Source: Sphingomonas sp. 28-66-16 (GTDB lineage: Bacteria > Pseudomonadota > Alphaproteobacteria > Sphingomonadales > Sphingomonadaceae). From it: a DNA stretch of 38,958 bases. Shown here piece by piece: positions 25,804 to 30,586 of this stretch. Under the pieces are notes generated by a model. The model made no database searches. It saw only the letters and a list, made by a program, of their open reading frames with translations, and was not told where the DNA came from. Every line of letters begins with the position of its first letter. Within the stretch, counting starts at the first letter, position 1. The position numbers were made by a program, and so were the translations under genes. The stretch is from contig NCGF01000024.1 of assembly GCA_002281485.1 (NCBI GenBank), positions 1 to 38,958 on the forward strand, read 5' to 3'.

Positions 25804-26949
25804 GTGGCGCTCGACGCAGAAACCTTTGACGCGCTGATCGACACCGTCCGGCGCTTCGTGAGCGAGCGGTTGCGGCCGCTCGAGGCGCAGGTCGAGGCCG
25901 ACGACGCGATTCCCGCCGATATCGTCGGCGAGATGCGCGCGCTCGGTCTGTACGGCCTGTCGATCGACGAAGCCTATGGCGGGCTCGGCCTGACGATGAG
26001 CGAGGAATGCCGCGTCGCGATCGAACTCGGCCGGACCACCCCGGCCTTCCGCTCGACCTTCGGCACCAATGTCGGCATCGGCAGCCAGGGGCTCGTCATG
26101 GCCGGCACGTCCGAGCAAAAGGCGAAATGGCTGCCCCGGATCGCGAGCGGCGAGGTCGTCACCAGCTTTGCGCTCACCGAGCCCGATGTCGGCAGCGATT
26201 CGGGCAGCGTGAAGACGCGGGCGGTGAAGGACGGCGACGTCTATCGTCTGTCGGGCACCAAGCGTTACATCACCAATGCCGACAAGGCCGATCTCTTCAC
26301 CGTCATGGCGCGCACCGGCGAGGAAGCGGGCGCGCGCGGGGTTTCGGCCTTTCTCGTCCCGCGCGACCTGCCCGGCCTCAGCATCGGCGAGCCCGAGAAG
26401 AAGATGGGGCAGAAGGGCGCCAAGGTCGCCGACGTGATCTTCGACGATGTCGCGGTGCCCGCCGGGAACCGGCTGGGTGCCGAGGGCGAGGGCTTCAAGA
26501 TCGCGATGCGCGTGCTCGATCGCGGGCGGCTCCATATCGCGGCGGTGTGTATCGGCGTCGCGGAGCGGCTGATCGCCGATTGCGTCGCCTATGCGACCGA
26601 GCGCCGGCAGTTCGGCAAGGCGATCGCCGAGCACCAGCTGATCCAGGCGATGATCGCCGATTCGAAGACCGAAGCGCTCGCGGCGCGCGCGCTGGTGCTC
26701 GAGACCGCCGCCGCCAAGGATGCGGGCAAGGACGTGGTGATGGAATCGGCAGCGTCCAAATATTATGCCAGCGAGATGGTCGGCCGCGTCGCCGACCGCG
26801 CGGTGCAGATTTTCGGCGGGGCCGGCTATATCGCCGATTACGGGATCGAGCGGCTCTACCGCGACGTGCGGCTGTTCCGAATCTACGAGGGCACCAGCCA
26901 GATTCAGCAGCTGATCATCGCGCGCGAGACGATCAAGCGCGGGGGATGA
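25804..26949 (+). CDS. Acyl-CoA dehydrogenase
   Basis: FAD enzyme that forms the alpha-beta double bond in acyl-CoA thioesters, 381 residues, the normal length. FALTEPDVGSDSGS is the FAD/substrate signature, ERRQFGK and GGAGYIADYGIERLYRD are conserved blocks, and IYEGTSQIQ provides the catalytic base Glu362. The GTG start has GGGAGAG upstream. Chain length or branched-acyl preference cannot be read safely. It is followed by an inverted-repeat element and an SDR gene. Confidence 0.93.
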   Translation: MALDAETFDALIDTVRRFVSERLRPLEAQVEADDAIPADIVGEMRALGLYGLSIDEAYGGLGLTMSEECRVAIELGRTTPAFRSTFGTNVGIGSQGLVMAGTSEQKAKWLPRIASGEVVTSFALTEPDVGSDSGSVKTRAVKDGDVYRLSGTKRYITNADKADLFTVMARTGEEAGARGVSAFLVPRDLPGLSIGEPEKKMGQKGAKVADVIFDDVAVPAGNRLGAEGEGFKIAMRVLDRGRLHIAAVCIGVAERLIADCVAYATERRQFGKAIAEHQLIQAMIADSKTEALAARALVLETAAAKDAGKDVVMESAASKYYASEMVGRVADRAVQIFGGAGYIADYGIERLYRDVRLFRIYEGTSQIQQLIIARETIKRGG

Positions 26950-27052: not shown

Positions 27053-27069
27053 AAGATAGGAGAATGAAT

Positions 27070-27858
27070 ATGGACACCACCAATCTCTTCCGGCTCGACG
27101 GCCGGATCGCGCTCGTCACCGGCGGCTCGCGGGGCATCGGCAAGATGATCGCAGCGGGCTTCATCGCCCAGGGCGCGACGGTCTACATCTCGTCGCGCAA
27201 GGCCGAGGCGTGCTTCGAGACCGCCAAGGAACTCGGCGACAAATGCATCGCGCTGCCGCAGGACGTCTCGACCGTCGCGGGCTGCAAGGCGCTCGCCGCG
27301 CAGCTCGCCGAGCACACCGACAAGCTCGACATCCTCGTCAACAATGCCGGCGCCGCCTGGGGTGAAAGTTTCGAGACCTTCCCCGAAAAGGGCTGGGACA
27401 AGGTGATGGACCTCAACGTCAAATCACCCTTCTTCCTGACCCAGGCGCTGCACGAAGCGCTAAAGGCCGCCGCGAGCGCGGGGCAACCGGCCAAGGTGAT
27501 CAACATCACCTCGATCGATGGCCTCCGGCTCAATCCGTGGGAGACGTACAGCTATCACGCGTCGAAATCGGCGCTGATCTATCTCACCAAGCGGATGGCG
27601 GCACGACTGGTGCAGGATCACATCAACGTCACCTCGATCGCCCCGGGCGCCTTTGCCTCGGAGATGAACAAGGCCGCGCGCGATCATGGCGACACGATCG
27701 CCAAGGGCATCCCCGCCAAGCGGATCGGCGTCGACGAGGACATGGCCGGCACCGCGATCTACCTCGCCAGCCGCGCCGGCGACTATGTCGTCGGCGAGAC
27801 GATCGCGGTCGATGGCGGGCTGGTCTACGGCGCGCTGGGGACGAGCATCGACGCTTGA
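27070..27858 (+). CDS. Short-chain dehydrogenase/reductase (RhlG/FabG-like)
   Basis: NAD(P)H-dependent SDR of 262 residues. The cofactor loop TGGSRGIG starts at residue 17 with a downstream SSRKAEAC that favours NADPH; NNAG is at 91-94 and the catalytic set is Ser148, Tyr162 and Lys166 (YHASK). The long SIDGLRLNPWETYSY stretch resembles RhlG-type ketoacyl reductases. Two ATGs are six bases apart; AGGAG is seven bases from the second (27070) and too close to the first. Together with the upstream dehydrogenase it suggests acyl-CoA or keto-acid handling. Confidence 0.9.
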   Translation: MDTTNLFRLDGRIALVTGGSRGIGKMIAAGFIAQGATVYISSRKAEACFETAKELGDKCIALPQDVSTVAGCKALAAQLAEHTDKLDILVNNAGAAWGESFETFPEKGWDKVMDLNVKSPFFLTQALHEALKAAASAGQPAKVINITSIDGLRLNPWETYSYHASKSALIYLTKRMAARLVQDHINVTSIAPGAFASEMNKAARDHGDTIAKGIPAKRIGVDEDMAGTAIYLASRAGDYVVGETIAVDGGLVYGALGTSIDA

Positions 27859-27911
27859 AATCGGCAACAAAGCCCAATCTTTGGTGGCATTTACCAAGCG
27901 ATAGGAACAGG

Positions 27912-27926
27912 GTATTTTCGAAATAC
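27912..27926. repeat. GTATTT-TCG-AAATAC palindrome
   Basis: Perfect 6-bp arms around TCG in an AT-rich stretch upstream of the small secreted protein gene. A TTGAAC -35-like hexamer follows at 27929-27934. It is a candidate operator for that gene. Confidence 0.4.
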
Positions 27927-27963
27927 TGTTGAACGTCAATATCTTAGGTGTATGGCATAGATA

Positions 27964-28015
27964 ATGCACCTCCTGTGCTGATGGCCAAGTTCGCCATCAG
28001 CACAGGAGGTTGCAT
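27964..28015 (+). promoter_or_regulatory. Hairpin that sequesters the Shine-Dalgarno of the next gene
   Basis: Bases 27968-27985 pair perfectly with 27993-28010 (18 bp) around loop CAAGTTC. Past one bulged T (28011), four more pairs (27964-27967 with 28012-28015) bring the stem to 22 bp, ending at the base before the ATG at 28016. AGGAGG, the ribosome site, is inside the 3' arm (28004-28009). There is no T-run, so termination is unlikely. If the whole hairpin is in the mRNA, translation would be shut until it is opened or cut. Confidence 0.75.
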
Positions 28016-28309
28016 ATGAGCATGATAATCGCTGGCGCACTGGCTTTATCAGTCGCGTCCCCTACCCCCGATCAGTCGATCGGTCGCCAGGACTGGCCGC
28101 ATGTCGTCGCCGCAGCGCGACGCGCGGACGTCCCGCCAATGGTGCTCTATCACGCCATGACGGAACCGACCGCAGCGCTGCGGCCTCGCCATGCCGCCCG
28201 GCTTTGCATCCGTCGCGGCGACATCGTGCCCGGCAAGGCCGGGATGGTGTGCCGCACCCGCGAGGAATGGGCGTGGCTGGGCATTGAAATCACGGCGCCC
28301 AAAGGCTGA
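28016..28309 (+). CDS. Small secreted protein with VCRTREEW motif
   Basis: A 97-residue protein. A short hydrophobic N terminus (MSMIIAGALALSVAS) looks like a signal peptide. The mature part has basic and acidic patches and ends with MVCRTREEWAWLGIEI; small secreted sphingomonad proteins with a C-R-T-x-x-E-W motif are known to me as uncharacterised. Cys68 and Cys79 could form a disulfide. The ATG is used because AGGAGG is seven bases upstream, although buried in a hairpin. It converges on maeB. Confidence 0.65.
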   Translation: MSMIIAGALALSVASPTPDQSIGRQDWPHVVAAARRADVPPMVLYHAMTEPTAALRPRHAARLCIRRGDIVPGKAGMVCRTREEWAWLGIEITAPKG

Positions 28310-28324
28310 CGACGCGGCGCCGCG

Positions 28325-30586
<2,262 letters not shown>

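Follow-up and report, generated by a model that had tools for sequence, protein, structure and literature searches.

Long transcripts of the phage T4 lysozyme gene e, and those of soc, 49 and I-TevI, fold in a way that hides the ribosome site (PMC3014915). For gene e, such long transcripts are translated about 100-fold less. The 5′ strand of their stem is encoded by DNA that also contains a late promoter, and transcripts begun there lack this strand and are well translated (PMC3014915). The accessible part of PMC8450116 and the literature on read-through held no precedent for the arrangement described below; T4 gene e supplied one.

The E. coli phage-shock system comprises PspF and PspA, with enhancer sites that lie 5′ of a sigma54 promoter (PMC3709507), and its PspF regulon is given as pspABCDE and pspG (PMC2763126). 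Sigma54 promoters have been compiled for Salmonella, for example that of fdhF, TGGCATAAAACATGCATA (PMC3844500), and GntR/YtrA-type operators are long palindromes (PMC4494728). Among the open-literature matches listed for Sphingomonas combined with sigma54 or with PspF, and for the PspF regulon itself, none describes the regulon or the device proposed here.

The window analysed is a stretch of 38,958 nucleotides from Sphingomonas sp. 28-66-16 (genome G000, 86% complete). On its forward strand, a gene for a 97-residue protein with a Cys pair and a C.TR.EW motif (28016..28309) follows a co-directional short-chain dehydrogenase/reductase gene (27064..27858; Pfam adh_short_C2, E 2.2e-47). Judged from its N-terminus, the small protein is probably exported. 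It has no family match in Pfam or NCBIfam, a protein scan of genome contigs returned no relatives, and a protein search of 298 genomes of the family returned only the gene itself and two weak matches interrupted by stops. The upstream gene is a possible source of read-through: no terminator-like sites were found in 27840-28400. A sigma70 promoter scan found nothing. By reading of ORFs, a co-directional upstream gene is present in all eight orthologs, and it is a dehydrogenase in five.

Between the two genes lies a hairpin with an outer extent of 27964..28015 (+ strand). The letters confirm the architecture given in the initial annotation: 18 contiguous Watson-Crick pairs with zero mismatch between 27968-27985 (ACCTCCTGTGCTGATGGC) and 27993-28010 (GCCATCAGCACAGGAGGT), a CAAGTTC loop (27986-27992), a bulged T28011 and four outer pairs joining 27964-27967 to 28012-28015. 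The Shine-Dalgarno sequence AGGAGG (28004..28009, + strand, read from sequence) does lie within the 3′ arm, as had been noted. The stem, which had been placed one base short of the start codon, stops immediately 5′ of the ATG (28016-28018). The minimum free energy of 27950-28030 is −43.5 kcal/mol, compared with −21.0 ± 3.0 in dinucleotide shuffles (n = 200; z −7.5), none of which equalled the stability of the hairpin. A search of the window's genome with 27850-28040 returned only its own place and the reverse complement thereof.

The reading favoured here, which we hold to be somewhat likelier right than wrong, is that a PspF/sigma54 promoter lies within a seal against read-through, in the manner of phage T4 gene e. 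The small protein gene would be a member of a sphingomonad regulon under sigma54 RNA polymerase and, most probably, PspF. The end of the promoter (27964-27967) and the adjoining segment 27968..27978 (+ strand; −11 to −1), predicted to be untranscribed from the sigma54 start, would together form the outer 5′ arm of the hairpin. A start near 27979 would yield a transcript that carries only a 7-bp 5′-terminal stem-loop and leaves AGGAGG free, so that the protein would be made under stress. The hairpin would be whole only in transcripts begun upstream of it; a run-in transcript from the upstream co-directional gene would carry the entire stem, with AGGAGG sealed and no translation. The sequences and calculations show the hairpin and its co-located counterparts in orthologs, the recurring promoter block, an enhancer-like dyad also present at psp operons with matching spacings, and the opening energies; from these we infer dependence on sigma54 and PspF, the position of the start, the occurrence of read-through and its effect on translation.

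The arrangement would parallel that of T4 gene e: the predicted promoter (27953-27967) overlaps the base of the stem, and the predicted start would fall within the 5′ arm. The Sphingomonas locus differs in its predicted sigma54-type promoter with a distal enhancer, in its location on a bacterial chromosome and in the short leader hairpin that remains, and its function is a prediction only. Among the roles that the initial annotation had offered, a leader starting inside the stem is the best supported, by virtue of the sigma54-type promoter predicted at 27953-27967, with its start near 27979. The annotation had named as a refutation a start downstream of about 27985, by which the 5′ arm would be lost. 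What is predicted comes close to this, yet it explains the hairpin rather than voiding it.

The 5′ arm overlaps a conserved block, GTGTATGGCATAGATAATGCAC (27948..27969, + strand), that recurs 5′ of sphingomonad genes whose small products are probably exported. When 101 same-genus genomes were searched with the protein, eight had a match, with convincing orthologs in G000 (the window's own), G093, G078 and G061. Block and hairpin lie upstream in all four; the sequences are largely different, and in G061 the hairpin is short, with interruptions. Scanning GTDB contigs for the block at the DNA level gave seven loci: one probable chance match, five P0001-type loci (two identical in sequence, the other three already known from G078, G061 and G093) and a locus of Hephaestia mangrovi, where the block lies 5′ of a different small protein. 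The P0001-type block (2 mismatches) matched in 11 of 295 same-genus genomes and its control in none, adding orthologs in G590, G604 and G607 and a different small gene in G609. The resulting set holds eight distinct P0001 orthologs, in which G061 and G604, and likewise G590 and G607, are alike.

A looser pattern (3 mismatches) gave 30 matches against 1 for the control in 12 genomes preselected for holding a match. The class-1 pattern GTGTNTGGCAYNNNTAATGCAC (1 mismatch) gave 18 matches in 17 of 397 family genomes, and its reversed control gave none; TGGCAY is present in 17 of the 18, and a downstream small Cys-pair gene was confirmed by script in 15 of 17. Across 28 class-1 loci the ATG lies 64-93 nt beyond the first block base. 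Such a gene was script-confirmed in 22 of 24 loci (G112 and G176 being the exceptions) and recognised by eye in four more. These proteins may form a single family, and their N-termini suggest that they are probably exported. A CM search gave matches in 70 of the 397 genomes. Besides the window's own locus, 29 were read: six were taken as real (L030, L031, L037, L038, L040 and L041), and 23 were discarded as chance matches, as coding sequence or as unclear, among them four identical copies within a single gene. The Aminicenantes locus L016 was taken as chance. Left uncounted as duplicates were G489 (almost the same as G243), G534 (which shares its block and contig position with L022/G495), and G619 and G622 (identical in sequence to L017/G494), although G489 is included among the 28 sites scored by the sigma54 matrix below. 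The block was also considered as a coding peptide and rejected by inspection, as the changes seen (ATA, ACA, ACG) alter the amino acid.

Sites of a second class, of the TTGCAT type (GTGTATTGCATnnnTAAnACAC: L068, L080, L081, L073, L079, L085 and L086), lie 5′ of other genes and were kept apart from class 1. By eye, L068, L080 and L081 show −35-like TTGCAT, TTGCAC or TTGAAT followed 17 nt on by a −10-like hexamer; the genes at these three loci we take to be DUF2157-like. At L071, L072, L077 and L083, palindromes (GTGTATTATnnnnnCAATACAC) lie close 5′ of a possible reverse-strand start codon and appear repressor-operator-like, again by eye. A YtrA/GntR operator reading was considered after class-2 sites turned up, and the class-2 palindromes at other sphingomonad genes do look related to those operators (PMC4494728). 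The reading was dropped for class 1, whose sites differ in that they keep sigma54 elements, with a psp-type dyad upstream.

The sequence TGGCAT-N6-TGC at 27953..27967 (+ strand) is the predicted sigma54 −24/−12 promoter. By a matrix built from 29 published Salmonella sites (PMC3844500), it scores 11.3 and ranks fourth among 77,882 window positions. In leave-one-out scoring, no known site falls below 13.9; this value is reached by 15 of the 28 class-1 sites, and the window promoter (11.3) and that of G604 (6.0) lie beneath it. Class-2 sites mostly score poorly. All 27 loci compared carry GG at −24 and TGC at −12 at the right spacing, a result largely selected by the pattern. Class-1 sites share TGGCAY and TGC with the Salmonella promoters at identical spacing (PMC3844500). 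They differ in the additional conservation of TGT and TAA around the core, which is due in part to the procedure by which the loci were found. The rpoN gene is present in 98 of the 101 genus genomes and in all 88 of better quality; no match was obtained in the 86%-complete G000.

Two other sites in the window resemble promoters. Its top sigma54 score, 13.4, belongs to 26753-26770 on the reverse strand, which has no enhancer site at the usual spacing. At 27905-27930, GGAAC...GTT is present with its spacing off, presumably resembling an EcfG-type promoter, and the orthologs compared there lack GGAAC.

Because the sigma54 rule centres TGC at −12, transcription is predicted to start at 27979 (+ strand), 12 nt after C27967 and with an uncertainty of about 2 nt, within the 5′ arm. 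The positions of leader hairpins lend this placement separate support: in 15 of 19 loci other than the P0001 orthologs, the best leader hairpin begins no more than 2 nt from the predicted +1, where 2.1 would be expected (binomial P 8.5e-12, treating loci as independent). In the window, the short hairpin TGATGGC-CAAGTTC-GCCATCA (27979..27999, + strand) would form the 5′ terminus of the predicted sigma54 transcript. Leader hairpins also occur in the upstream regions of sphingomonad pspF (e.g. L134, L136, L137 and L138). In 31 psp-operon leaders, examined without a shuffle control, the best hairpin begins 3-5 nt past +1 in 20 and within 2 nt in two.

These leaders give some weight to an unlikely but serious alternative, in which a PspF/sigma54 promoter is accompanied by a +1 stem-loop acting as a 5′-terminal mRNA element, such as a stabiliser, and pairing into the promoter is non-regulatory. 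The frequent psp hairpins 3-5 nt past +1 fit such an element, and most paralogs show leader hairpins near +1 with no clear seal. It is also favoured by the per-base test of pairing before +1, in which no more than two of eight orthologs reach significance on their own. Nevertheless, perfect stems cross +1 in four of the five orthologs tested, with 17 (G000), 12 (G093), 16 (G078) and 12 (G494) pairs, and in each case none of 200 shuffles attained that length; the fifth, G061, lacks a long perfect stem. Furthermore, among 27 loci compared, CCTC adjacent to the block is found only in the P0001-type loci, G495 and G609, and there it is able to pair with the ribosome site or right next to it.

Sigma54-dependent promoters have an enhancer for an AAA+ activator some 70-150 bp upstream, and the sites upstream of the class-1 promoters make PspF the most likely activator. 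The top shared upstream word pair at class-1 loci is CGCC-N5-TTGG (12 of 26 loci; shuffled maxima 4-5). Within −140..−75, the dyad YGCCA-N5-TGGCR at a match of at least 9/10 is found in 18 of 27 loci and in none of the 27 in each of four control regions; at a match of at least 8/10 it is found in 24, against 6, 8, 1 and 2 in the controls. Its centres cluster near −88, −99, −108 and −120, phased by 10-10.5 bp, or about one helical turn. As these counts were made on the loci where the dyad was first found, a matrix from psp operons is the more independent test. De novo analysis of 34 regions upstream of pspF gave CCAA-N3-TTGG in 21 (shuffled maxima 3-5), and a sigma54 promoter could be recognised in 31, all but one of which have a site scoring at least 8, mostly at the same distances. 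The matrix was derived from 29 of these sites, picked with the de novo consensus once the words agreed, many of the genomes being related; the outlying site of L160 was excluded.

By this matrix, a site at p <= 0.05 is present in 26 of 27 class-1 loci (seven of eight orthologs and all 19 others), the exception being G093 (p 0.063). The best site within −400..−30 lies at −125..−85 in 25 of the 27; the window is among the two loci that depart from this. It contains a weak candidate PspF-type enhancer site, GCCCAATCTTTGGTG with core CCAATCTTTGG (27872..27886, + strand; centre −100), which scores 6.4, against a training median of 19.0 and minimum of 7.5 (p 0.021 within −140..−75), and alone ranks tenth in the window. 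A second weak candidate, TACCAAGCGATAGGA (27892..27906, + strand; centre −80), lies 20 bp away and scores 8.4, the best of the window within −400..−45; at no other locus does the best site have the −80 spacing. When promoter and enhancer are scored together at the regulon spacings, 27953 comes out top over both strands of the window, at 17.7 with the runner-up at 11.1. IHF-like sites were left out as evidence because even their best place, −57, was reached in only eight of 27 loci.

Five sigma54 activators are present in the incomplete G000. One, L134, is PspF (TIGR02974, 471.9 bits; NCBIfam equivalog cut-off 443.55) and is divergent from genes that include PspA. In a set of 52 genomes, pspF was matched in 51: all 26 with the block, one of these as a fragment below the cut-off, and 25 of 26 without it, so its presence is non-discriminating. 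PspF, PspA and enhancer sites 5′ of a sigma54 promoter are features shared with the phage-shock system of E. coli (PMC3709507). The predicted regulon differs from that of E. coli in having genes for small, probably exported proteins as members.

Folding of truncated transcripts bears on the seal. In the window, opening the Shine-Dalgarno sequence would cost 12.1 kcal/mol in a transcript begun at −100, 15.0 from −12, 4.0 from −6, 2.0 from −2 and 0.9 from +1. The corresponding values for G093 are 9.6, 11.7, 2.9, 0.9 and 1.6 kcal/mol, and those for G604 are 6.3 (−100), 1.9 (−12) and 1.7 (+1). Orthologs other than the window and G093 show a smaller gain. The mean cost from −100 versus +1 is 6.4 versus 2.1 for the eight orthologs and 5.1 versus 4.1 for 17 paralogs, and the opening energy is significant in three of eight orthologs, one of two other CACCTC loci and two of 17 paralogs. 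In G494, Shine-Dalgarno accessibility is alike in both transcripts compared (0.47 and 0.45). In G495 the Shine-Dalgarno sequence is paired in the manner of the seal despite a divergent upstream gene, and many paralogs with a same-strand upstream ORF lack a seal.

In predicted folds, each position from −9 to −1 is paired in six to eight of the eight orthologs, and eight of these nine positions show more than one type of pair, as read from separate folds rather than an alignment. In total, 64 of 72 ortholog cells are paired, where shuffling of −11..−1 gives 45.6; for the 17 paralogs the figure is 87 of 153, with 71.3 expected. Since this pairing beats shuffles individually in only two of eight orthologs, the modelled seal is graded as well supported in G000 and G093 and as plausible, with less support, in the other orthologs. 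RNAalifold, applied to six sequences, recovered the inner stem and an upstream hairpin (hairpin 1), but not the outer stem. In the comparison with related loci that the initial annotation had recommended, hairpins are co-located in the orthologs, G061 has no long perfect stem, and the covariation term of the RNAalifold fold is near zero (0.08).

The ortholog hairpins occupy the same place with largely different sequences, which argues against the sequence-specific operator in the stem that had been among the suggested roles, and for pairing itself, although per-base controls are modest. A DNA-level feature devoid of RNA function, such as a cruciform or a palindrome that template switching has made perfect, is very improbable. 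The near-perfect symmetry of stems that differ in sequence would suit it; G-U pairs in the predicted folds of six of the eight orthologs, and a 3′ arm at or beside the ribosome site, would not.

Hairpin 1 raises a further, improbable alternative: a bistable RNA leader, riboswitch- or thermometer-like, in which the transcript includes the block and CACCU has two alternative partners, upstream AGGUG (hairpin 1) and the ribosome site (hairpin 2). The segments AGGUGUAU and AUGCACCU are able to form the eight pairs that RNAalifold predicts, and in G078 and L017 the ribosome site is left open by the predicted fold. However, hairpin 1 loses its two outermost pairs in L022, and by inspection pairs are lost in L040 and L041, while TGG and TGC are kept. 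The upstream dyad and its phasing fit a DNA promoter, and an Rfam search returned 11 matches, none over the gathering score.

More broadly, and tentatively, with chances a little short of even, the phage-shock regulon of sphingomonads may have been expanded by small exported Cys-pair proteins, all of them led by a PspF/sigma54 promoter and most by a 5′-terminal hairpin, and one lineage may have turned the DNA downstream of the promoter into an anti-Shine-Dalgarno strand that silences read-through. If so, the T4 lysozyme trick of placing a promoter in one strand of a translational lock would also operate on bacterial chromosomes, and a sigma54 stress promoter would have an off-state that is tight at transcription and translation alike. 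The PspF regulon would be widened to unnamed small, probably exported proteins, with a testable role in envelope stress.

The window's genome contains a second class-1 promoter (L074, G000:C33:94345-94366, − strand), which has a strong psp-type site at −99 and precedes a gene for another small, probably exported protein.
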